Shown here: in pieces, positions 44,607 to 64,000 of the stretch
How positions within the stretch are numbered: position 1 is the stretch's first letter
Layout of the letters: each line of letters opens with the position of its first letter
Source: Collinsella sp. An7
Lineage (GTDB): Bacteria > Actinomycetota > Coriobacteriia > Coriobacteriales > Coriobacteriaceae
Reading direction: 5' to 3'
Assembly (NCBI RefSeq): GCF_002159335.1
Contig: NZ_NFHP01000004.1
Span: forward strand, 62,001-126,000
Length of the DNA: 64,000 nt
Translations under genes and position numbers: made by a program
The notes under the pieces: model-generated
The model's database searches: none
What the model saw: the letters and a program-made list of their open reading frames with translations, nothing else
Told to the model about the DNA's origin: nothing

Positions 44607-45816
44607 CCTTTCATCCGGCCCCGAGCAGAGCGCCGGCGAGCCGCGGCGCCCCAAGCGCGCATCCGAGGAGCAGGGGCGCGTCGTGATGCAGCCGGGCCGC
44701 CCGCGTCCGCTCTTCTTTACGGGCAAGCGTCCCAAGCGCGACCGGCACTCTCGGCGCAAGGTGGCGTTCTTTCACTTTCGCAACTACGAGCCTGCCTTCA
44801 AGTTCTTTGTGGAGCAGGTGCTCGACGCCGACTTTATCCCGCTGCCGCCGCCCACGCGTCGCACGGTCAAGATCGGCGAGGAGCTCTCGAGCGACTACGT
44901 CTGCACACCCTTTAAGCACATCATGGGTGACTACGTGGAGGCGCTCGAGCGCGGCGCCGACGTGCTCGTGCAGGTTACGGGGTTCTGCCGCCTCAACTAC
45001 TATGGCGAGCTCGCCCAGATGATTCTGCGCGACCGCGGCTACGCCGACTTCGATATGCTCAACTTCTCGGACGTGGGCACGGGCAAGGTCCGCGACTACG
45101 TGGCCTACTGCAAAAAGGTCGTAAACCCCAACCTCTCCATTCCGCACGGGGTCAAGGGCCTCTACGCGGCCTGGCGCATGGTGGAGCATATCGACGAGTT
45201 TCGTGATCTCTACCTGGCGCGCGCCGGGTTTGCGCAGGAGGCGGGCTCGTTTGAGCGGGTGCGCCGGAGCTTCATCGCGCGCATGAACGCCGCTACCACG
45301 CTCAGCGATATCGAGACGGGCTTTCGCCAGTCGGTGGACGAGCTCGAGGCGCTGCCGATCGATAAGCCGGCCGATCCGGTGCGCGTGGCGATTCTGGGCG
45401 AGTACTACACCGCTCAGGACCCGTCGAGCAACCTCGGGCTCGAGCAGAAGCTCCTCGACATGGGGGTCGAGCTCGTCAACTACATGTCGATCTCCAACTT
45501 CAACCTGCACTACAACGCCGATGCCACGCGGGCGAGCATCACCGAGTACAGTCGCTTTGACATGGGGCCGACCTCGAGCTTTAACATCGCCGCGGCCAAG
45601 CGTGCGGCCGAGGAGGGCTTTGACGGCATCGTGCACATCAAGAGCGCCGGCTGCACGCCCGAGATCGACGTCATGCCGCCGCTGCAGCGCATCAGCCGCG
45701 ACTACCACGTGCCCGTGCTCTTTCTGACGTTTGACACGCAGACCTCCGACGCCGGACTCGACACCCGGCTCGAGGCCTTCTACGACATGATCGCAATGAG
45801 GAAGGTTCGCTCATGA
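44599..45816 (+). CDS. 2-hydroxyacyl-CoA dehydratase D-component-like protein (DUF2229), second subunit
   Basis: This 405-residue partner of the preceding protein has an Arg/Pro-rich N-terminal extension of about 50 residues, then the same fold. The conserved cysteines are in SDYVCTPFKHIMGDYVEALE, VQVTGFCRLNYYGELAQMIL and HIKSAGCTPEIDVMPPLQRI. The GEYYT/SNFNLHYNADATR region is typical of this group. In many bacteria these modules and the activator are fused in one very long protein; here they are three separate genes. It overlaps the activator gene by 4 bp. Confidence 0.8.
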   Translation: MPSLSSGPEQSAGEPRRPKRASEEQGRVVMQPGRPRPLFFTGKRPKRDRHSRRKVAFFHFRNYEPAFKFFVEQVLDADFIPLPPPTRRTVKIGEELSSDYVCTPFKHIMGDYVEALERGADVLVQVTGFCRLNYYGELAQMILRDRGYADFDMLNFSDVGTGKVRDYVAYCKKVVNPNLSIPHGVKGLYAAWRMVEHIDEFRDLYLARAGFAQEAGSFERVRRSFIARMNAATTLSDIETGFRQSVDELEALPIDKPADPVRVAILGEYYTAQDPSSNLGLEQKLLDMGVELVNYMSISNFNLHYNADATRASITEYSRFDMGPTSSFNIAAAKRAAEEGFDGIVHIKSAGCTPEIDVMPPLQRISRDYHVPVLFLTFDTQTSDAGLDTRLEAFYDMIAMRKVRS

Positions 45817-46769
45817 AGGCATATCTGGGTATCGACACCGGCTCCATCTCCACCAAGGGCGTGGTGATTGACGAGGACCGCACGATCATCGCCCGCAGCT
45901 ACCTCTGGACGGAGGGCGACCCGGCCGGCGCGGTGCGGCGCGTGGTGGACGACCTGCGCGGGCAGATCGACCTCAACGAGGTCGAGGTCATGTCCATCGG
46001 CACGACGGGCTCGGCGCGCCGTCTGGTGGGTGCCATGCTCGAGGCACAGATCGTCAAGAACGAGATCACCGCGCATGCGGTGGGTACGACCTTTCTGCAC
46101 CCGGACGTGCGCACGATCCTCGAGATCGGCGGCCAGGACTCCAAGATCATCTGCATCGAGAACGGCATTGCCGTGGATTACGCCATGAACACGCTCTGCG
46201 CGGCGGGCACGGGCTCCTTTCTCTCGAGCCAGGCGCACCGCTTGGGTGTGGAGGTTGAGGATTTTGGACGCATCGCGCTCACGAGCGACAAGCCGGCCAA
46301 CATCGCCGCGCGCTGCACGGTCTTTGCCGAGAGCGACCTGGTACACAAGCTCCAGGTGGGCTACGAGAAGAAGGACGTTATCGCCGGGCTCTGCCGCGCC
46401 GTGGCCACCAACTACCTCAACAACGTGGGCAAGGGCAAGAAGATCGAGAGCCCCGTGGTATTCCAAGGCGGCGTCTCTAAGAACGTGGGCGTGGTGGATG
46501 CGTTTGAGAAGGCGCTCGGCAAGAAGGTCATCGTAGACCCGGACGGGCACCTGATGGGCTGCTTTGGCGCAGCGCTGCTTGCCGCCGACGCGCCCAAGAT
46601 GCGCGAGCAGCCCTTCCGCTTTGACATCGACGACTTTGATTTCCGCACGCGCGAGGTGGTCTGCGGCCACTGTGCCAACCATTGCGAGATCGTCTGCGTC
46701 TACCGCGACGACGAGCTCATCGATTCGTGGGGGAATAGGTGCGATCGCGGCGCCATTAAGGTTCACTAA
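45813..46769 (+). CDS. BadF/BadG/HgdC-type ATPase, CoA-substrate enzyme activase
   Basis: This 318-residue ASKHA-fold ATPase hydrolyses ATP to push low-potential electrons from its [4Fe-4S] cluster into the partner protein. LGIDTGSISTKGVVID (phosphate loop), SIGTTGSARRLVG, ILEIGGQDSKIICI and VVFQGGVSKNVGVV are family motifs. The bridging cysteines are C129 (LCAAGTGSF) and C168 (AARCTVFAESD). A C-terminal addition has five more cysteines (C284, C287, C291, C295, C310), which may bind a metal. Operon partners are the two DUF2229 proteins upstream. Confidence 0.9.
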   Translation: MKAYLGIDTGSISTKGVVIDEDRTIIARSYLWTEGDPAGAVRRVVDDLRGQIDLNEVEVMSIGTTGSARRLVGAMLEAQIVKNEITAHAVGTTFLHPDVRTILEIGGQDSKIICIENGIAVDYAMNTLCAAGTGSFLSSQAHRLGVEVEDFGRIALTSDKPANIAARCTVFAESDLVHKLQVGYEKKDVIAGLCRAVATNYLNNVGKGKKIESPVVFQGGVSKNVGVVDAFEKALGKKVIVDPDGHLMGCFGAALLAADAPKMREQPFRFDIDDFDFRTREVVCGHCANHCEIVCVYRDDELIDSWGNRCDRGAIKVH

Positions 46770-49962: not shown

Positions 49963-50715
49963 ATGGAGAAACTCGGTGTGATCGGCGGCATGGGCCCCGA
50001 GGCTACCTCGTACTTCTACGACCAGGTGGTGCGCCACACGGCGGCTACCTGCGATCAGGAACACCTCAACATGGTGATCCTCTCGTGCGCCTCCATGCCC
50101 GACCGCACCCGCGCGATCGAGACGGGCGACCACGCGGGCCTGCTCGCCGAGATGCGCGCGGCCACGGCGGCTCTCGAGGACCTTGGCTGCGGGCACATCG
50201 CCATTCCGTGCAACACCTCGCACTACTTCTACGACGCCATCCAGGCCATGACGAGCGTTCCTGTCATCCACATGCCGCGCGAGGCGGCGCGCTACGCGGT
50301 GGCCGGTGCCGTGGCGGGGGAGTGCGACTTTGACCCCGAGCGCAGCGGCGGGCTCTTTGAGCGTCCCATCCGGCGCATCGGCATTATGGGGACGGACGGT
50401 ACGGTGGATTCCGGCGTGTATGCAGACGCTTGCGCGCTCGTGGGCGCCGAGGCGGTGGTGCCGAGCGCGCCACGGCAGCGCGACGTGATGTCGCTCATCT
50501 ATGACGACGTCAAGGCGGGGCGCGAGCCGGACCTCGACAAGTTTGACCGGGTGCTTGCTGAGTTTGACGAGGGCGGTTGCGACCGCGTGATCCTGGCCTG
50601 CACGGAGCTCTCGGTCCTCGGGCGCTACCGCGCGATGCCGCCGCGTGTGCTCGACGCGATGGATGTGCTCGTGCGCGAGAGCATCGTGCGCTGCGGGGCC
50701 CCCTACCGGGCGTAA
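49963..50715 (+). CDS. Aspartate/glutamate racemase family protein
   Basis: This 250-residue cofactor-independent racemase shows the N-terminal motif KLGVIGGMGPEATSYFYDQV, the first catalytic cysteine in AIPCNTSHYFYDAIQ and the second in VILACTELSVLG, both intact. The fold fits aspartate racemase more than MurI (GGMGPEAT, MPDRTRAIETGD). AGGAGGTGAGCG precedes the ATG. Next to an ATP-grasp ligase it probably supplies D-aspartate for the peptidoglycan bridge. It is the last gene before the riboswitch region. Confidence 0.88.
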   Translation: MEKLGVIGGMGPEATSYFYDQVVRHTAATCDQEHLNMVILSCASMPDRTRAIETGDHAGLLAEMRAATAALEDLGCGHIAIPCNTSHYFYDAIQAMTSVPVIHMPREAARYAVAGAVAGECDFDPERSGGLFERPIRRIGIMGTDGTVDSGVYADACALVGAEAVVPSAPRQRDVMSLIYDDVKAGREPDLDKFDRVLAEFDEGGCDRVILACTELSVLGRYRAMPPRVLDAMDVLVRESIVRCGAPYRA

Positions 50716-50847
50716 GCGCCTCGGGCCAGGCGTACTTCCCGCGCTCGACTCGGCGTGTGCGACGGGGAGCGTTCCCCTGTGGGCCCCCGGTGTGTCACCG
50801 GCTCCCTGCCGCGTTCCGCCGCGGGCCAACCTCTCATCCCGATGTGC

Positions 50848-50853
50848 TAGCAT
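50848..50853 (+). promoter_or_regulatory. Probable -10 box of the riboswitch-led operon
   Basis: TAGCAT lies 12-15 bp before the start of the riboswitch-like sequence, giving a leader of about 240 nt up to the ATG at 51100. Confidence 0.45.
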
Positions 50854-50865
50854 ACGGGGCACATA

Positions 50866-51010
50866 TACGTTGGCCTCGAGAGTGGTGCGGAGACGTACGG
50901 GCGCCAGGCGCCTAGGGGAAGAGGGGTGCGAGACCCCCGCTATACCAGTAACCGTGAATCGCGATGCCCGCCGGGTACTCGCGCCGCAGATCGGACGGCG
51001 CGCGGCGGGA
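50866..51010 (+). ncRNA. Cobalamin riboswitch (by eye)
   Basis: The leader contains the ordered conserved pieces of an adenosylcobalamin-type aptamer. These are a 5' GTGGTGCGG segment, AGGGGAAGAGGGGTGCGAGA followed by CCCCCGCTATACCAGTAACC then GTGA, and then a CCCGCCGGGTACTC block. A perfect stem, GCGCCG/CGGCGC, at about 50981-51002 follows and could be part of the expression platform. No T-run terminator is seen, so control may act on translation of the downstream ATG. This was recognised by consensus strings only; a covariance search is the decisive test. Confidence 0.7.
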
Positions 51011-51099
51011 AGGGCGGTGAGCCGGATCGCCTCCTCTCGATAGGCGCGCAGGCAACGCTTGGGTGCATGCGCGTCGGGCCCTGGGAGAGAGGTGCACCT

Positions 51100-54000
51100 A
51101 TGAAGGTGAATCGGGACGCTGCACGGGCGCGGGAGGCGCTCGGCCGCGGCGGACGTTGGTGGCGCGCGGGCGCGCCCTGGCGCCGTGCGACCGCGCGGCG
51201 TGCAGTCGCCGTCGGACTTACGGGATTGCTGCTGTTTGGCCAGGTTCCCGCGGCAGCGTGGGCGGCGGAGGCAGAGGCCCTCGGGCACGTGGCCCAAAAC
51301 GTGGTTGCGCTTGCGCAGAACGCAGGCGAGGGTATCGCTGCGACGGACGCGGTCGGTGCCGAGGGCACGGCGGCGGATGGGGCTGCCGGCGCCGGTGACA
51401 CGGCGGCGGGCGCAGATTCTGCCGAGGGCACGATTGCCACAGACGCGGGGGATGGCGCGACATCCGCGGCAACAGACGATGCGTCCCCGGAGACGGCTGC
51501 GGACGCGGCGCCGGCACCGGATGCGCCCTCGACCGATGCGGCGGCGCCGTCTGCCGCCGATGGGACGACGGCGCCCGACGCCGCTTCGCAGGCGCATGCG
51601 GGGGCCGCGTACCTGCTGATTCAGGACGCAAAGGACGCAGCGTCGTCGGAGGGCCGCGTCGAGGGCGCCGTGAGCGCGGGCGCGACGCTCTGGGCCAACC
51701 TGTTCATCGGTGGGGAGGATGCCGATGGGGCCGATGCCGACGCGGCCGTGGCCGCGCAGGACGGCTGGACCTACCAGTGGTACGCCTGCGGCACCGCCTC
51801 CGCGCGCATAGACGACTACGAGCCCATCGCGGGCCAAACCGCGCAGAGCCTCGTTCTCACCGAAGACCTGGCAGAGCAGCTTGCGGGCAGCTATCTCGCC
51901 GTCGCGGTGACGGTCGACAGTGAGCGCCACGTGGGTCCTGCGGAGCGCTTTGGCACCGCGCAGGGCTCCCTCGATACCGTCGCGCCGGTCGGCCCCGTTG
52001 CGGCGCCCCCTGCGAGCGCGTCTACGGGGGCTGCGTCCACGGCGCCCGAGACGGCGGGCGCCTCCCATGCCGCTACCGCAGGAGCGGACGAATCGCCTGC
52101 GACCGACGAGGGCGTCGCGTCCCTCGCCGTGACGGCGGCGGCAGGCGACGCTGCGATCGCGGACGCCGCCGTGGGCGCCGCCCCTGCTAGGGACGCGGGG
52201 CGCTACACGCTCTCGGGCATCAAACTGTCCTCGAGCGGTCAGGCGGCGCAGGCGGGCAACGTCATCACCGCCACGGCGCAGGTGCGCCAGGGCTACTACG
52301 ATGTGGCGGCTCCCGCGGACGCCGCCCTCGGCTTCATATGGGAGGTGCAGGACGAGGCGGGGTCGTGGCAACCGCTCGACGAACGCCTTGCCGCGAGCGG
52401 CAAGGGTGACCTCCTTTTGCTCGACGGCTACGTGGGCAAGACGCTTCGCGTGCGCGCCTCGGCGCTCGACAACGAGGTCGTCTCCGAGAGCTTCACCGTG
52501 CTCGCGGCGGGTACGTACGACCTGCTCCGCGTGACCACCTCGCCCCTTGTCTCCAGCTCGACCACGCAGCTCTTTACGGGCGATACCGTGACGGCGACGG
52601 TCCAGGCGCGCCGGCTCGGCGGGTCCGCGACCTACGGCGACAACGTGACCGACAGCGTTGCGGTCCAGTGGTATGCGGCAGACACCGCCGAGGGCCCCTT
52701 TGCGGCGATCGACGGGGCGGACGGGGCCTCGCTCACCATCGGCGCTGACCTCGCCGGCTTCTACCTCAAGGCGGTGGCGACCAGCGGTTCCTCCACGGTG
52801 GAGATCGCCGCGGCGAACCCCGTCATCGATGCGACGTCGCTTGCGGGCATCGCGGCCAAGCTCGCAGACGAGAGCTGGCGCCCCGAGCTCACCTACGGCG
52901 TGGACACCAACCTGAACGACGTGCTCCGGGCGAAGCTCGCGCGCATGGGCGCGGACGACGTCGCCGTGCGCACGGTCGCCGTCGAGGTCTCGCGGCCTGC
53001 CGAGGGCGCGGTGCTCGGCATCTCGACCGATGATGCCTCAAACGGCGCCATCACCTACTTTTTCATGGACCCCGACGACCTCACGGGTTGGGGCGGGTTC
53101 ACCGGCTACCGCACGTTCACACCTACGTTCGAGCTTGCGCGCGACGGCGAGACCGTTCTGTTCACCCCCGAGCGCACGGCGACCATGCCGTGGGACGAGG
53201 CGCGCTTCGATGAGATGCTCGCATCCGATGCGGCGGCCGCCCTTGCCATCGGGTACACCGCAGGCGACGCGGCGGAATCCGTCACCCAGGACGTGACGCT
53301 GCCGCTCAAGCTGGCCGACAAGAGCTGGTCGACTGTCAGCTGGACGAGCTCCGACGAGGACGTCGTCAAGGTTACCGGCAACAGCTGGGACAAGACCATG
53401 ACCGGCGCGGTCACGCGGCCGGCGGAGGATACCGAGGTCACGCTCACGGCTACGGTAGGCGTAGTGACCTCGGGCGGCCCCGAGGTTACGGTCGAGGTGC
53501 CGTTCACGCTGACGGTCAAGGCCGATCCCGCCGCCATCGAGGAGGAGACGGCCGCGCTCGCGGCGAAGGTCGACGCCGCCTTCACGCCCGACGCCCTCAC
53601 CTACAGCGCTGACGGCGCCGCGGTCGACGCGGCGGCGGTGGCGGGCGACCTGCAGCTGCCCACGACGCGCGCCCTCGGTATCGACGGCAAGTATTACACG
53701 GTCGCGTACGCGGCCTCGACGGACGCCCTCGTCATCAACGGGTACCGCGCCAACGTGTACCAGCCGCTGCCGGGCGGCGCGCCGCGCGAGGTCGAGCTCG
53801 CGCTCACGGTGACGAGCAAGGATAACCCCGCAATCACGGCGACCAAGACCATCGCGCTCACCGTCTCGCCGCTCGCGGCGGAGGCGATCGATGCCGAGCT
53901 CGCCCTTATGGAGGAGGCCACGGCGGGCTATGCCGCCGCCCTGCTCGACGGGCAGGGCGCCGATGCCGTGACGGGCGACCTCGCCATCTTCCAGAAGGCG

Positions 54001-56685
54001 TACCGCGCCGAGGACGGCTCGCTCGCGTGGGCGCGCGATTACGCGGAGGCCTCCGCCGCGGGCGACGGTATCGAGACCGTCGACCTCGAGGCGGATGACG
54101 AGATGGGCGTCGTGCCCGGCCATTGGTTCAAGTCAAGCGACGCCGGCGTGGTGGCGCACGACACGCTGCGGGTGACCCAGCCGGAATACGACACGCAGGT
54201 CACCGTCACGAGCATGCTCGCGAGCGAGAGGTTCGCGCGCTACGCCGAGCTCTATGCGGACGATGCCACGTGGGGTCCCGCGTTTACCCGGCTCGCCGGC
54301 CAAGAGGTGCGCGCCACCTTCACGGTCGCGGGCACGAGGGGGCCTGAGGACCCGGATGTGGAGGCCACAGTCGCCATCATCGGTGCAGACGCCTTTGGCG
54401 AGGACCAGGTCTGGGTGGCGCGCACGTCCTACGACCTCGCGAAGGGGTCGACGGCGGCCGACCTTATCGAGGCGGCGCTCGCCGACGCCGGGCTCGCGCA
54501 CGAGGCGTCGGGCGTGGGCACCGAGGGGTACTACCTCAGCACGATCACCGCTCCGGACGGCCGCGTGCTGGGCTGGGACGAGGAGACGGGCAAATACTGG
54601 CAGCTCTTTGTGGACGGCGCCGCCTCCGATACGGGCGCGGGCCAGGTGGCGCTCGAGCCGGGTACCGACGTCGTGCTGTACTACGCGCCCTACGGCGCGT
54701 CGCCGGAGGATATCGGCAAGGCCAAGATCACGGTGACCGCGCAGATCATCGGTCCCGATGCGGAGGGCGCGGACGCGTCGTGGATGGGCCTCACCGAGAT
54801 CTCGCTCCCGCAGGGCTCCACGGCGGCCGACCTCACCGAGCGCGCCCTCGCGCTCGCGGGCCTCGAGGCGGATACGGGCACCGGCTCGTACGGCTGGTTC
54901 CTCAACAGCATCACCTCGCCTTTCACCGGCGAGTCACTGGGCACGGTCGAGACCTCGCCCGGTACGTGGTCGTACTGGCAGCTGTTTGTGGATGGCGCGG
55001 CGTCCGACCTCGGCGCGGGCAGCGTGGAGCTCAAGCCGGGCACCCAGGTGGTGTGGTATTACTCCGCGTACGGCGCCGAGCTTCCCGCAAACGACGTCAC
55101 GGTCGATCCGGACGCCTGGGACGAGCGCCCCTCCGACTGGGAGGCGGCGTGGGAGGGCTTCGCCCCGGGTGCCCTCGCGGGCATCGCCACGCCCACCGAG
55201 GGCGGCGAGCTCGCCTGGGCGGTCGCCACGGGGGCCACGCCGGGCAGCGCCTCCGCCGTCTATCAGAGCGACCCCGCCATCGCGGGCGGCCGCGTCTTTT
55301 TGGCGGTGGGGGACACCCTCAGGGCCTATGACAGCGCGACGGGCACGGAGCTCGCCCGCGCGACCCTCGCCACGAGCATCGATTCCGCCTGCCGGCTCGT
55401 CTTTGCGGACGGTCTCATCGTCGTGCCGCTCCACGGCGGCCGGCTGCAGGTGCTCAGGGCCGATACGCTCACCACGGTCTCGCTCACCTCGGAGCTCGCG
55501 GTGGGCGCGCAGGCGCTCTCCTCGGTGACCGTGTGGGACGGATACGCGTATTTCGGCACGACGGACGGCGCCGGCGCCGCGGGCGCGCTCTTCTGCGTCA
55601 ACCTGCGGACGGGCGCCGTCGCGTGGTCGACGACCGGCTCCGGTGACGCCGGTTACTACTGGACGGGCGCCGTGCGCGCGGGCGATCGCGTGGTCGCCGT
55701 CGACGGCGCGGGTACAGTGCGCTCGCTCGACGCGGCGACGGGTGCCGACGAGCAGACGCTCGCGCTCGGCGCCGACGCACGCGCGGCGCTCGTGGCAGAC
55801 CCGTCGGACGCCTCGACGCTCTACGCCGTAACGCAGGACGGAACCCTCCACCGCATCACGGTTGCGGCGGACGGATCGCTTGCGCTCACGGGCAGCGTCC
55901 GCTTTGCGGCGAGCTCGACCTCCACGCCCACCATTGCCGACGGGCGCGCCTATGTCGGCGGCGCCACGGAGAGTTACACGGGTGTGCTCGCGGTCATCGA
56001 TCTGGCCACCATGACGGTCGAGCACGAGGTCACCGGCTTTGCGAGCGGGGCGTCGCTTCCCGGCGACGTCAAGGCGGCGCCGACGGTCGCGGTGCAGGGC
56101 GACGCCACCTACGTCTACTTCACCTGCAACGCCGCGACCGGTGCGGTGTACCGCTACCGCCTGGGCGACGATGCGGCGGTGCTTGTGTACGAGCCGACGG
56201 GAGCCTATGCCGACTGGTGCATGGCGAGCGTGGCCGTCGATGCCGAGGGCGCGCTCTATTACGTCAACGACTCCGGCCATCTCTTCCGCATCGATGCGGG
56301 CGCGGCACTGCCCGATCCGGAGGCGCCGGCAGACCCCGAGGGCTCGGGGACATCGGATGGCGCGGGGCAGAGCGGCACGGTCTCCGGCGCGGGCGGGGCA
56401 ACCGGCGGCACCGTGCCGCAGATCGTGCTTACGGGCACGGCCGCGGCCGCCGACGCCGCCGCATCGAATGGCGATGCCGGCGATACCGCAGACGCCGAGC
56501 CCCAGAGCTTGCTCTCAGCCTTCGCCCGCGCGGGGGAGGACGGTGCGGTTGCGGCGGCTTCCGCCGCCGACGCGACCGAGGGCCCGCGCGCCCCGCTCGT
56601 CGCCGTCTTCCTCCTTGCCATCGCCGCGGGCGTCATCCTCATCATCGGTCTTGTCGTCACGCGCCGCCGCGCGGGGGAGGAGTAG
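51100..56685 (+). CDS. Giant secreted surface protein with two DUF4430 domains and a beta-propeller
   Basis: 1861 residues. A long signal peptide (AVAVGLTGLLLFGQVPAAAW) is followed by a low-complexity Ala/Asp/Thr region to about residue 170. Ig-like segments come next, including an atrophied-Ig type (TWTSSDEDVVK-like; about residues 700-1000). Two DUF4430 domains lie at about 1086-1203 and 1210-1325 (each with KYWQLFVDGAASDTGAG or SYWQLFVDGAASDLGAG). A PQQ-like beta-propeller spans about 1362-1735, then a C-terminal membrane anchor (VAVFLLAIAAGVILIIGLVV) and a basic tail. DUF4430 is the transcobalamin/intrinsic-factor C-terminal-like domain. With a cobalamin riboswitch upstream, cobalamin capture is the likely role. 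The stop is 1 bp before the next gene. Confidence 0.85.
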   Translation: MKVNRDAARAREALGRGGRWWRAGAPWRRATARRAVAVGLTGLLLFGQVPAAAWAAEAEALGHVAQNVVALAQNAGEGIAATDAVGAEGTAADGAAGAGDTAAGADSAEGTIATDAGDGATSAATDDASPETAADAAPAPDAPSTDAAAPSAADGTTAPDAASQAHAGAAYLLIQDAKDAASSEGRVEGAVSAGATLWANLFIGGEDADGADADAAVAAQDGWTYQWYACGTASARIDDYEPIAGQTAQSLVLTEDLAEQLAGSYLAVAVTVDSERHVGPAERFGTAQGSLDTVAPVGPVAAPPASASTGAASTAPETAGASHAATAGADESPATDEGVASLAVTAAAGDAAIADAAVGAAPARDAGRYTLSGIKLSSSGQAAQAGNVITATAQVRQGYYDVAAPADAALGFIWEVQDEAGSWQPLDERLAASGKGDLLLLDGYVGKTLRVRASALDNEVVSESFTVLAAGTYDLLRVTTSPLVSSSTTQLFTGDTVTATVQARRLGGSATYGDNVTDSVAVQWYAADTAEGPFAAIDGADGASLTIGADLAGFYLKAVATSGSSTVEIAAANPVIDATSLAGIAAKLADESWRPELTYGVDTNLNDVLRAKLARMGADDVAVRTVAVEVSRPAEGAVLGISTDDASNGAITYFFMDPDDLTGWGGFTGYRTFTPTFELARDGETVLFTPERTATMPWDEARFDEMLASDAAAALAIGYTAGDAAESVTQDVTLPLKLADKSWSTVSWTSSDEDVVKVTGNSWDKTMTGAVTRPAEDTEVTLTATVGVVTSGGPEVTVEVPFTLTVKADPAAIEEETAALAAKVDAAFTPDALTYSADGAAVDAAAVAGDLQLPTTRALGIDGKYYTVAYAASTDALVINGYRANVYQPLPGGAPREVELALTVTSKDNPAITATKTIALTVSPLAAEAIDAELALMEEATAGYAAALLDGQGADAVTGDLAIFQKAYRAEDGSLAWARDYAEASAAGDGIETVDLEADDEMGVVPGHWFKSSDAGVVAHDTLRVTQPEYDTQVTVTSMLASERFARYAELYADDATWGPAFTRLAGQEVRATFTVAGTRGPEDPDVEATVAIIGADAFGEDQVWVARTSYDLAKGSTAADLIEAALADAGLAHEASGVGTEGYYLSTITAPDGRVLGWDEETGKYWQLFVDGAASDTGAGQVALEPGTDVVLYYAPYGASPEDIGKAKITVTAQIIGPDAEGADASWMGLTEISLPQGSTAADLTERALALAGLEADTGTGSYGWFLNSITSPFTGESLGTVETSPGTWSYWQLFVDGAASDLGAGSVELKPGTQVVWYYSAYGAELPANDVTVDPDAWDERPSDWEAAWEGFAPGALAGIATPTEGGELAWAVATGATPGSASAVYQSDPAIAGGRVFLAVGDTLRAYDSATGTELARATLATSIDSACRLVFADGLIVVPLHGGRLQVLRADTLTTVSLTSELAVGAQALSSVTVWDGYAYFGTTDGAGAAGALFCVNLRTGAVAWSTTGSGDAGYYWTGAVRAGDRVVAVDGAGTVRSLDAATGADEQTLALGADARAALVADPSDASTLYAVTQDGTLHRITVAADGSLALTGSVRFAASSTSTPTIADGRAYVGGATESYTGVLAVIDLATMTVEHEVTGFASGASLPGDVKAAPTVAVQGDATYVYFTCNAATGAVYRYRLGDDAAVLVYEPTGAYADWCMASVAVDAEGALYYVNDSGHLFRIDAGAALPDPEAPADPEGSGTSDGAGQSGTVSGAGGATGGTVPQIVLTGTAAAADAAASNGDAGDTADAEPQSLLSAFARAGEDGAVAAASAADATEGPRAPLVAVFLLAIAAGVILIIGLVVTRRRAGEE

Positions 56686-56686
56686 C

Positions 56687-57802
56687 ATGACTGCCACCGA
56701 TCAGGGGCGCGCGCCCCACTGGATCCGTCCCGCGCTCGCCGCGCTCGCGGTCCTGCTCATCGTCGTCGGTGTCGGCGGGGCGATTGCCCTCGGCGCCGGA
56801 GACGGCCTCGCGGGGCTTCTCGGCTCCGACCTCTTTCAGACGGTGGCCGAGGAGCCGGCGGAAGATGATGCCGCGCTCACGGCGACGGTCACCGTCGACG
56901 ACGTGCAGGGGGCGCTCGCGGAGCTCCCCGGTGACCTGGCCATCTCCCCGGACGCCACCGGCATCACCTGCGTGGTGGACGGTGACGGCATCTGGGTGGA
57001 GTACCCCGAGGCGACCGATGCCTCCGCGGTCATCGACCTCGCCGCGCGGCGCGCGGCGGGCCTCGCGCAGTGGGCCGCGCAGGCGGACCCCGCTATCAGC
57101 CAGGTGACCTGGATCGCCGAGGATGCGGGTCAGACGGCGCTTTTTGCCCTGGCCCTCGATCCCGCCGCCGTTGTGTCCGATGCGGCAGACGCCTCTGCCG
57201 CGGATATCCTCGCTGCGGCCACCGGCTACCGCATCGCGGGCGACGCGTACGCCTCTCTCGACGACCCGGCCTTCGAGCAGGAGGCGGGTGCGGCGCCCTC
57301 GCTGCCCGACGGCAGCGAGGTGCCCATCGAGCTTGCGCAGACCGCAACCGATGGGGCCGATGCCGCGCAAGGCGGCGCCTCCGGCTCGACGGGGGGCGGC
57401 GCTGCCGGCGCGGCGCAGGGCGGCCCGACCGGCACCGCGTCCGGCACCACGTCCGGCACCACGTCCGGCACCACGTCCGGCACCACGGCAGACCTCATCA
57501 CGGTGTCCATCACCGTCGACGGCTCGGCTGCCGGGGCGGGCGCCTCGTCCGCCACGGTATCGCTCGCAGCGGGCTCAACGGTCTACGACGCGCTTGCCAA
57601 AACGGGCATCAGCATCTCCGCCTCGGGGTCTGCCTACGGCATGTACGTGTCGGCGATCGGAGGCCTCGCGGAGCGCCAGCACGGCCCCATGAGCGGGTGG
57701 ATCTTCAGCGTCAACGGCGTCGAGCCCAGCGTGGCGTGCTCCGCCTATACGCTCAGCGCGGGCGATAGCATCGTGTGGACGTACGTGAACGTGGAGGAGT
57801 AA
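56687..57802 (+). CDS. Membrane-anchored DUF4430 protein
   Basis: This 371-residue protein has an N-terminal membrane anchor or signal (ALAALAVLLIVVGVGGAIAL), an extracytoplasmic middle part of no recognised family (about residues 60-230), then a Gly/Ser/Thr linker encoded by four perfect 12-bp repeats. A C-terminal DUF4430 domain (about 268-371) contains SLAAGSTVYDALAKTGISIS, GMYVSAIGGLAERQHGPMSG and WIFSVNGVEP. It starts 1 bp after the giant protein and must be co-transcribed, thus also under the riboswitch. Its lone DUF4430 domain suggests a second cobalamin-handling step at the membrane, which is inference. Confidence 0.82.
   Translation: MTATDQGRAPHWIRPALAALAVLLIVVGVGGAIALGAGDGLAGLLGSDLFQTVAEEPAEDDAALTATVTVDDVQGALAELPGDLAISPDATGITCVVDGDGIWVEYPEATDASAVIDLAARRAAGLAQWAAQADPAISQVTWIAEDAGQTALFALALDPAAVVSDAADASAADILAAATGYRIAGDAYASLDDPAFEQEAGAAPSLPDGSEVPIELAQTATDGADAAQGGASGSTGGGAAGAAQGGPTGTASGTTSGTTSGTTSGTTADLITVSITVDGSAAGAGASSATVSLAAGSTVYDALAKTGISISASGSAYGMYVSAIGGLAERQHGPMSGWIFSVNGVEPSVACSAYTLSAGDSIVWTYVNVEE
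57439..57486 (+). repeat. Four tandem 12-bp repeats inside the DUF4430 gene
   Basis: GTCCGGCACCAC is repeated four times exactly and encodes a Ser-Gly-Thr-Thr linker. Perfect short tandem repeats can change copy number and so alter linker length without shifting the frame. Confidence 0.9.
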
Positions 57803-58355: not shown

Positions 58356-58754
58356 CTACCCTGCGAGGAACTTCTTGCGGCTGAAGAAGTTGTACCAGGT
58401 CACGCAGAAGGTGGCGATGACCTTCATGGCCTGGTAGGCGATGTTGAGCACGGTTACGCCCACAAACATAAAGACGTCGTTGAGGCCCAGGCCCACGGCC
58501 GAGAGAATCGCAAAGATGGTGAACTCGCGCTTGCGGCTCATGTCGTCGCGGTGATCAAAGACGTAGTGCATGCTCAGCGCGTAGTTGAGAATGACCGACG
58601 CGGTAAACGAGATCGTGGTGGAGAGCAGGTAGTCGGCGTGGCAGAGCTCCACCAAAAAGACCAGCAGCGCCCAGTCGACCGCGAAGGAGATGATTCCCAC
58701 CACGGCGAACTTCATAAACTGCATGGTCGACGGTTTGGAGAGCGCAGCGCGCAC
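58356..58754 (-). CDS. GtrA family membrane protein 1
   Basis: This 132-residue protein has four transmembrane helices of the GtrA type (MKFAVVGIISFAVDWALLVF; LLSTTISFTASVILNYALSM; REFTIFAILSAVGLGLNDVF; the last before WYNFFSRKKFLAG). Members flip or present lipid-linked sugars to surface polysaccharide pathways. The HYVFDHRDDMSRKREF turn is the family hallmark. GTG at 58754 has AAAGGGG upstream. A close paralogue lies 233 bp further on the same strand. Confidence 0.88.
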   Translation of the reverse strand: MRAALSKPSTMQFMKFAVVGIISFAVDWALLVFLVELCHADYLLSTTISFTASVILNYALSMHYVFDHRDDMSRKREFTIFAILSAVGLGLNDVFMFVGVTVLNIAYQAMKVIATFCVTWYNFFSRKKFLAG

Positions 58755-58987: not shown

Positions 58988-59383
58988 CTACTTGCTCTCG
59001 TCGCCCTCGAGGAAGATCTTGCGGGTCACAAAGTTCCACACCATCACAACGGCCGTTGCCACCAGCTTGACGAGGCGGTAATCGAGCGTCACCACCTCGG
59101 TGCCGAGCCACATGAGCGCGTCGTTGATGCCGAGCCCCACGGCCGAGAGCACGACAAAGATCACAAACTCGCGTTGGCGGCTCATGCCCTCGCGATGGCT
59201 AAAGACGTAGCGCATGCTCGCGAGGTAGTTAAAGATCACCGAAACGATAAACGAGATGGTGGCCGAGACTACGGGGTTGAGCCCAAAGACCTCGGTGAGA
59301 AAGACGAGCACGCCAAAGTCGATGGCAAAGGCGATAACGCCCACGATGCCAAACTTCACGATCTGAGCCAGGAGCTTTTGCAC
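58988..59383 (-). CDS. GtrA family membrane protein 2
   Basis: This 131-residue paralogue of the preceding gene has IVKFGIVGVIAFAIDFGVLV, ATISFIVSVIFNYLASMRYV, FVIFVVLSAVGLGINDALMW and WNFVTRKIFLEG at the end. The two proteins share the FNY/LNY-x-MxYVFxHR-xxMSR turn and the spacing of all four helices, so they arose by duplication. GTG at 59383 is preceded by GGAAAGGA. No glycosyltransferase gene is adjacent; the nearest is 13-14 kb in the glf region. Confidence 0.88.
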   Translation of the reverse strand: MQKLLAQIVKFGIVGVIAFAIDFGVLVFLTEVFGLNPVVSATISFIVSVIFNYLASMRYVFSHREGMSRQREFVIFVVLSAVGLGINDALMWLGTEVVTLDYRLVKLVATAVVMVWNFVTRKIFLEGDESK

Positions 59384-62667: not shown

Positions 62668-63414
62668 CTACAGCACCAGGCCAAACGCGATGAGCGCCAC
62701 GCAGCACACCGCGACCACCGCGTCGCGCGCGGCAAAGGGATAGCGCTTGTAGCTGCTCTCGCGTGTGCGCAGGTAAAAGCCGCGCTCCTCGGCCGCAAGG
62801 GCCGTGGCGTCGGTCTTTCCCACCGAGGTCACGAGCAGCGGCACGCACACGGGCAGCATGAGCGTGAGCTTCTTAAAGGGGTTCTTGGTATCAAACTCCA
62901 CTCCGCGGGCCGTCTGCGCCTCCATGATGGCGTTCATCTCTTGGGTAAAGACCGGCACAAAGCGCAGGGCGGTGGTAAAGGTAAAGGCGTACTTGTAGGG
63001 GATATGCAGGTGCTCAACGCACGCGTTGGCAAGGTCGGTGAGCTTGGTCACGGTGAGCATGAGCACGAGCGGCAGCGCCACGCCCAAAAGCCGCAGGCAC
63101 GCCTTGCTGCCCGAGATGAGCCCCTCGTCGGTCGCAAAGAACAACACGGGCGTTCCGCGGCGCACAAAGATTGCCTGCAAAGCGAGCATGAGCGCGGCTA
63201 CGGGGACGAGCACTTTGAGCAGCGACAGCAGCCGGGAGCCGCTGCCCGCGTAGATGCCGAGCACGAGCGTGAGCGCAAGCAGGGCGATGAGCGCGGCGTA
63301 GCTGTCGGCGAGGAAGGTCGCTGCGATGATGGACGCCGCGAGCGCGACCTTGGTTACGGGGTTGAGCCGGTGGAGCACCGTGGTGCCGGGGATGTAGTCG
63401 ATGACGTTAAGCAC
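62668..63414 (-). CDS. ecfT: ECF transporter transmembrane component EcfT
   Basis: This 248-residue membrane protein couples the ATPases to the substrate-binding S component of an energy-coupling-factor vitamin or metal transporter. About five hydrophobic helices are seen (VALAASIIAATFLADSYAAL; LIALLALTLVLGIYAGSG; and so on). The cytoplasmic coupling motifs with Ala-Arg-Gly are TARGVEF and AEERGFYLRTRES. GTG at 63414 overlaps the end of ecfA by 8 bp, showing translational coupling. The S component is not within the window. Confidence 0.9.
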   Translation of the reverse strand: MLNVIDYIPGTTVLHRLNPVTKVALAASIIAATFLADSYAALIALLALTLVLGIYAGSGSRLLSLLKVLVPVAALMLALQAIFVRRGTPVLFFATDEGLISGSKACLRLLGVALPLVLMLTVTKLTDLANACVEHLHIPYKYAFTFTTALRFVPVFTQEMNAIMEAQTARGVEFDTKNPFKKLTLMLPVCVPLLVTSVGKTDATALAAEERGFYLRTRESSYKRYPFAARDAVVAVCCVALIAFGLVL

Positions 63415-64000
63415 GGTTGACCAGCTCCTTTACGGTCCGAACAACATCGGCGACCTCGCTCGCGTGCGCGAACGCGGGGCTTGCCTCTCGAGTGAGGCGC
63501 TCGGCCAGGGCGGTGACCTGCGGCGGCGCTACGCGGGCGCGCTCCATGAGGGCCGCGTCGGCAAAGATGTCGCGCGTGGCGCCGGCGCCGAGGATGCAGC
63601 CGTCGGCCATCACCGCCAAGCGCTCGGCAAAGTCCGAGACAACCTCCATGTCGTGGCAGACCATGATGACGGCGCACCCGTGCTCGGCCATCTCTCGCAC
63701 CGTCTCCATAACGGTCATGCACTCGCGGTAGTCGAGGCCGCTCGTGGGCTCGTCGAGTACCACGATGTCGGGCTCGACCACCACCACCGAGGCGAGCGCG
63801 ACCATCTGCCGCTGCCCGCGCGAGAGCGAGAAGGGCGACTCCTCCGCGGGGAGGCCAAAGCGCTCAATCACGCGCTCGGCACGGCGGCGCGCCTCGGCGC
63901 GGTCGATGCCGGCCAGCTCGAGGCCAAAGGCAACCTCGTCGAGGACCGTGTTTTTGCAGAGTTGCCGGTCGGGGTTCTGAAAGAGCGTTGCCACGTGCCG
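63407..64000 (-). CDS. ecfA: ECF transporter ATPase EcfA, 3' part
   Basis: The N-terminal start lies beyond the right end of the window, so only about 198 codons are visible. Readable ABC motifs are the Q-loop region HVATLFQNPDRQLCKNTVLD, signature FSLSRGQRQMVALAS, Walker B PDIVVLDEPTSGLD and the switch histidine in IMVCHDMEVV. TVLDEVAFGLE after the Q loop is the EcfA hallmark. It drives transport with EcfT and another ATPase. Confidence 0.92.
   Translation of the reverse strand, partial: RHVATLFQNPDRQLCKNTVLDEVAFGLELAGIDRAEARRRAERVIERFGLPAEESPFSLSRGQRQMVALASVVVVEPDIVVLDEPTSGLDYRECMTVMETVREMAEHGCAVIMVCHDMEVVSDFAERLAVMADGCILGAGATRDIFADAALMERARVAPPQVTALAERLTREASPAFAHASEVADVVRTVKELVNRA

Follow-up and report, generated by a model that had tools for sequence, protein, structure and literature searches.

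A candidate corrinoid-capture operon of surface-anchored DUF4430 and beta-propeller proteins behind a predicted cobalamin-clan riboswitch in Collinsella

Scavenging of B12 by exported proteins of Gram-positive bacteria was predicted when the SLBB (transcobalamin C-terminal-like) clade was defined (Burroughs, Balaji, Iyer and Aravind, 2007, PMC1796856). The operons described there resemble the locus reported here in carrying the same domain family on exported proteins with the same predicted role, in fusions to Ig-like and, in Clostridium, beta-propeller domains, and in the presence of a second paralogous SLBB protein and of a CbiO-like ATPase with a CbiQ-like membrane protein in the operon (PMC1796856). 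The term riboswitch has no occurrence in that text, whereas a covarying riboswitch with a putative expression platform is described here; new with respect to the 2007 prediction are this riboswitch evidence and platform, the link to a CbrT-like S-component, the propeller family, the occurrence in Coriobacteriia, giant proteins with up to four DUF4430 domains and an ECF cassette split off to a second riboswitch locus. No experimental test of bacterial DUF4430 function was found in the open-access literature. The beta domain of human transcobalamin, intrinsic factor and haptocorrin shares its fold and a detectable sequence homology with the bacterial domain, but the animal proteins possess an alpha6/alpha6 barrel that is absent here, and membrane anchors are present here. 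ECF-CbrT of Lactobacillus delbrueckii (structure 6FNP) is a proven B12 transporter (Santos et al., 2018, PMC5997447) whose S-component is homologous to that found in the genome studied here, where, unlike in ECF-CbrT, exported proteins with DUF4430 domains and a propeller are linked to the transporter and the S-component is fused to two ATPases. Among analogues that have been tested, the nearest is BtuG of Bacteroides, which, like BtuH, serves surface-anchored B12 capture from B12-riboswitch loci (Wexler et al., 2018, PMC6143338; PMC8941943). BtuG is a seven-bladed propeller that works with BtuB in the outer membrane and has been reported as confined to Bacteroidetes (PMC6143338), whereas the propeller here is of BamB/PQQ type with an ECF transporter as its presumed partner, and the two propeller systems are likely convergent.

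The window analysed here, a stretch of 64,000 nucleotides of Collinsella sp. An7, covers contig positions 62001-126000 of a genome of 2.37 Mb in 18 contigs and contains a leader, a gene for a giant surface protein and a gene for a small membrane-anchored protein (Table 1). The two genes lie 1 bp apart by their ORF coordinates, and an earlier note made from the sequence of this DNA had placed both correctly; its description of the products as exported and membrane-anchored agrees with the signal-like stretch and C-terminal helix of the giant and with the N-terminal helix of the small protein. Taken together, the riboswitch, DUF4430 domains homologous to the beta domain of transcobalamin, the surface anchoring and the linkage to a CbrT-like ECF transporter point to corrinoid capture, as that note had proposed, although the idea itself was already present in Burroughs et al. 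(2007, PMC1796856). The operon very likely encodes the surface half of a corrinoid (B12) uptake system of Gram-positive gut bacteria that feeds a CbrT-like importer, with the binding itself predicted, and the independent lines of RNA switch, carrier homology, B12-transporter homology, operon linkage and co-occurrence make this a strong inference.

Table 1. Positions within the window of the leader, gene and domain features of the DUF4430 operon
Feature	Position	Strand	Evidence
5' GGCC element, pairs with 51077-51080 beside the ribosome-binding site	50872-50875	+	Pairing kept across leaders
Cobalamin-clan riboswitch aptamer (predicted); P1 = 50877-50882 with 51034-51039	50877-51039	+	AdoCbl-II 24.0 bits, alignment, covariation
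GGCC and CTGGGAGAGAGG: 3' half of the putative platform helix and Shine-Dalgarno-like stretch	51077-51091	+	Sequence
Giant surface protein, 1861 aa from ATG	51100-56685	+	ORF, Pfam, homologs in 80 named loci
N-terminal export signal-like stretch of giant, AVAVGLTGLLLFGQVPAAAWAAE	51100-51270	+	Sequence
aBig_2 Ig-like domain (PF20578) of giant	53227-53523	+	Pfam E 3.4e-17
DUF4430 domain 1 of giant	54445-54684	+	35.1 bits, cut-off 23.8
DUF4430 domain 2 of giant	54814-55065	+	44.5 bits, cut-off 23.8
BamB/PQQ-type beta-propeller of giant	55168-56313	+	AF2 model, Foldseek, alignment
C-terminal transmembrane anchor of giant, followed by TRRRAGEE	56590-56658	+	Sequence; shared by 43 homologs
Small membrane-anchored DUF4430 protein, 371 aa	56687-57802	+	ORF, Pfam, orthologs in 75/80 loci
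Transmembrane helix of small protein, residues 13-36	56723-56794	+	AF2 model
DUF4430 domain of small protein	57572-57787	+	66.7 bits, cut-off 23.8; fold comparison

In the proposed mechanism, scarcity of intracellular cobalamin would lead the leader to permit translation of both genes, and the giant would be secreted and stay attached through its C-terminal helix. Its Ig-like segments would keep the tandem, transcobalamin-beta-like DUF4430 domains and the propeller at a distance from the membrane, in a position to catch corrinoid. The small DUF4430 protein, which in other members is a lipoprotein, would receive the corrinoid near the membrane and pass it to a CbrT-like S-component. The latter belongs to an ECF ABC transporter whose genes form a second locus with a separate copy of this riboswitch. 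Ligand binding, hand-over, the OFF state with B12 present and control at the level of translation are predicted steps, whereas the covariation and homology of the riboswitch, the identities and folds of the domains, the linkage in operons, the relation to CbrT, the co-occurrence across genomes and the B12 need of the host were observed. A more detailed arrangement is offered tentatively and is on balance doubtful, namely that the corrinoid is held between the transcobalamin-type beta domain and the BamB-type propeller, the latter replacing the animal alpha-barrel, in a relay from a giant wall-spanning antenna through the membrane DUF4430 protein to a CbrT-type ECF transporter, which would compete with host carriers for B12 in many gut Actinobacteriota and Clostridia and would be distinct from BtuB/BtuG. 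The locus is a concrete candidate B12-capture system for Coriobacteriia and some Clostridia, for which the RNA switch gives independent evidence of the ligand, and judging from gene content and homology the catching of B12 by a large set of Gram-positive bacteria of the gut very probably works by such proteins. It is also relevant to the suggestion, made in 2007, that the B12 carriers of animals were acquired from Gram-positive bacteria.

All three DUF4430 domains, two in the giant and one in the small protein as the earlier note had counted them, exceed the Pfam gathering score of PF14478 (Table 1), and Pfam likewise recovers the Ig-like segment (aBig_2) and the beta-propeller that had been read in the giant. 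The correspondence of DUF4430 to the C-terminal beta domain of transcobalamin and intrinsic factor holds at the level of both profile and model, with human transcobalamin (transcobalamin-2) as the first match of the DUF4430 profile search (E 1.7e-4) and Z scores of 14.6-16.4 for the AF2 model of the small protein against the beta domains of the three animal carriers (Z 16.4 for haptocorrin, 15.7 for intrinsic factor and 15.3 for the transcobalamin beta domain), whereas the scores of unrelated beta-grasp folds start at 8.3. By this model, the DUF4430 domain of the small protein is a beta-grasp fold of transcobalamin type. The middle part of the same protein (residues about 65-220, 56879-57346) is a confidently modelled alpha/beta domain that gave weak fold matches alone, to CamS/sex-pheromone-precursor lipoproteins (Z 6.3-6.5 within the full-length model). 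Neither protein has a Pfam match to the alpha6/alpha6 barrel or to the animal cobalamin-binding family, and both are related to the beta domain of the animal carriers only.

The transporter to which the surface proteins would deliver is encoded on contig 15 of the same genome, where a riboswitch is followed by a gene for a DUF4430 lipoprotein, which holds the one remaining DUF4430 domain of the genome, the fourth, just downstream of the riboswitch, and by genes for an EcfT-like protein and an EcfAA'S fusion in which the S-component is joined to two ECF ATPases. In a search of the PDB, the S-component profile matched CbrT of ECF-CbrT (6fnp_A) at E 2e-10 over about 165 residues, with the next match at 0.24, which leaves CbrT as the one significant relative among proteins with a known structure; the Pfam label of the S-component is the riboflavin S-component family, a broad relative. 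The S-component was matched in 60 of the 64 genomes of the bacterial family, in some of them by a fragment. What is split between two loci in the window genome is contiguous in Eggerthellaceae of the same order (riboswitch, propeller protein, small DUF4430 protein, EcfT and EcfA) and in the Ruminococcaceae locus L178, where an RF00174 riboswitch at 2423-2626 precedes genes for a C-terminally anchored propeller protein, a DUF4430 lipoprotein, EcfT, EcfAA' and EcfS. Eight of the nine Clostridia loci found via the propeller carry RF00174 on the same strand just upstream of the propeller gene, at 75-88 bits.

The window genome encodes one protein with a B12-binding domain, which is MetH by sequence, and a class II ribonucleotide reductase NrdJ above cut-off, and by this gene content the host is a B12 user. 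CbiC, the one marker of de novo corrin synthesis examined, was not found in the window genome and is absent from most genomes of the family, and the host is very probably unable to make the corrin ring. Gut corrinoids are diverse, and it might be asked whether the main substrate is a corrinoid other than complete B12 (cobinamide, pseudo-B12 or another cobamide), taken up by the same mechanics. This is favoured by the fact that ECF-CbrT carries both cobalamin and cobinamide (PMC5997447) and that crystals of the isolated human transcobalamin beta domain have been obtained with cyanocobalamin and also with cobinamide (PMC5599065). The evidence assembled here does not separate the substrates, as a riboswitch that senses the finished intracellular cofactor fits either, and with most family genomes lacking CbiC this narrower reading is considered unlikely. 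The same crystal structures bear on the absence of an alpha-barrel partner as in transcobalamin, which counts against corrinoid capture in general, because an isolated beta domain crystallised with cyanocobalamin and cobinamide indicates that the barrel is not needed for some corrinoid binding.

The propeller was modelled with high confidence (AF2 pLDDT 94.8, pTM 0.93), and both sequence and fold searches led, in the matches listed, to BamB/PQQ propellers and not to the BtuG type; Foldseek placed BamB at 5e-16, with designed eight-bladed propellers also among the best matches, and BtuG was absent among the 50 fold matches listed. At least 190 relatives were found in one scan, in which the closest named relative was a 'Candidatus Coprousia avicola' record with 96% identity over the matched segment, among Enorma and Collinsella. 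All 80 loci share the propeller, by which they were identified, and in 60 of them a DUF4430 domain resides on the same polypeptide. The combination of tandem DUF4430 domains with a propeller, which had seemed unusual from the sequence of this locus, is not so, and the system is widespread. The propeller is the conserved core and the most conserved part of the system. Conservation of its mouth loops exceeds that of the rest only modestly (0.58 vs 0.50) and is given no weight here.

The relatives of this common BamB/PQQ type bind many things, which counts against corrinoid capture, and propellers of the BamB type are scaffolds elsewhere; the Ig-like domains, low-complexity N-terminus and size of the giant resemble those of adhesins, and its DUF4430 number varies from 0 to 4 across the 80 loci. 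From these features the giant could be a surface adhesin or glycan-binding protein that merely happens to be regulated by B12 and in which the DUF4430 domains serve a structural purpose. Such a role is very unlikely in view of the conservation of riboswitch, propeller, DUF4430 and ECF transporter in two phyla, and the adhesin-like part appears dispensable because the Clostridia form of the protein consists of little more than signal, propeller and anchor.

None of the cobalamin families reached its Rfam gathering score in the window, and the sole match in 50700-51200 at a relaxed threshold was to AdoCbl-II (RF01689) at 50905-50974 on the + strand, with 24.0 bits and E 0.0033. The earlier note had named a search of the leader with the Rfam cobalamin models as a check on its aptamer; run naively, this check speaks against the aptamer because 24.0 bits lies below the gathering cut-off of 36.5 bits, whereas three homologous leaders exceed that cut-off at 38.9, 38.7 and 37.3 bits. 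As the copy in the window, at 50870-51044, scores below the cut-off by itself, its membership among the cobalamin riboswitches of Rfam clan CL00101 rests on the leader family. For each of the two cobalamin models, the top two matches in the whole genome are the leader in the window and the site on contig 15, which have long identical stretches in common, and a profile built from these two copies recovered the leader at 36 of the 40 DUF4430 loci taken from other genomes; of the four loci without a match, three have a riboswitch just beyond the examined stretch or on another contig. In 26 aligned leaders, 97.7% of the cells of the predicted structure are paired, 16 of 29 pairs show changes on both sides (including all 6 pairs of the closing helix P1), and 85 double-change cells compare with 24.5 in shuffles, a number that none of 500 shuffles reached. 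The window leader scores 143.6 bits against the family's own covariance model R1, in whose training set it is included. By this covariation and by the three relatives above the cut-off, which bear out the aptamer claimed from the sequence, the window leader is a diverged member of the cobalamin riboswitch clan. Four loci (L042, L060, L062 and L067) have a compact form of the leader, without the peripheral arm 3' of the AACCGT core.

Control would be exerted at the translational level by a helix between two GGCC elements, the 3' one of which lies directly upstream of a CTGGAGAGAAAGG-like ribosome-binding site; the Shine-Dalgarno-like stretch sits 8-9 nt 5' of the start codon, and the same layout is found in all leaders listed. 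The pairing is complete in 40 of 40 leaders and is matched by none of 5000 shuffles, with few independent events behind this count, and compensated pairs (GACC/GGTC and GGTC/GACC) were seen. That the leader is a degenerate relic or another RNA with no working riboswitch, as the score of 24.0 bits against a cut-off of 36.5 for the copy in the window might suggest, is hardly credible beside the compensatory changes across the family, the conserved pairing to the region of the ribosome-binding site, the three members above the Rfam cut-off and the canonical riboswitch that occupies this place in Clostridia.

The riboswitch and DUF4430 also occur together across genomes. Among the 64 genomes of the family, DUF4430 is found in 58 and the riboswitch in 57, all 57 within the 58, while none of the six DUF4430-negative genomes has the riboswitch (Fisher p 9e-8, w/o correction for shared descent); carrier genomes have one riboswitch match each and the window genome has two. 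In keeping with corrinoid capture, two of the genomes that lack the system (G044 and G062) carry CbiC and are also without the S-component, and one (G056) has no B12-binding domain; two others are less than 90% complete. A further one (G004) has the S-component, a MetH-type domain and NrdJ but no DUF4430, and it counts against corrinoid capture, as do six of seven tested loci of Atopobiaceae (L105, L107, L110, L111, L123 and L147), in which no cobalamin riboswitch was recognised. The seventh (L106), a locus of the same kind, carries RF00174 at 74.4 bits, and riboswitch control in the propeller operons of Atopobiaceae may have been lost, replaced or diverged. Five genomes (G021, G022, G023, G033 and G034) likewise count against it, since they combine riboswitch and DUF4430 with the absence of a B12-binding protein of PF02310, with sub-cut-off matches to NrdJ in four of them and none in one.

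A second ECF module within the window (62668-63994, - strand) was rejected as a B12 transporter. In this module, as in locus L180, EcfT and EcfAA' are encoded together with an S-component whose gene is near a tRNA-guanine transglycosylase (queuine) gene, and because the S-component gene in the window adjoins that for queuine tRNA-ribosyltransferase, the module probably transports a queuosine precursor and has nothing to do with B12. Immediately downstream of the DUF4430 operon, the - strand carries two tandem genes for similar small membrane proteins that look GtrA-like (58356-58754 and 58988-59383), and upstream of the DUF4430 region a BadF/BcrA-type activator ATPase (Pfam PF01869) is encoded at 45813-46769 on the + strand.
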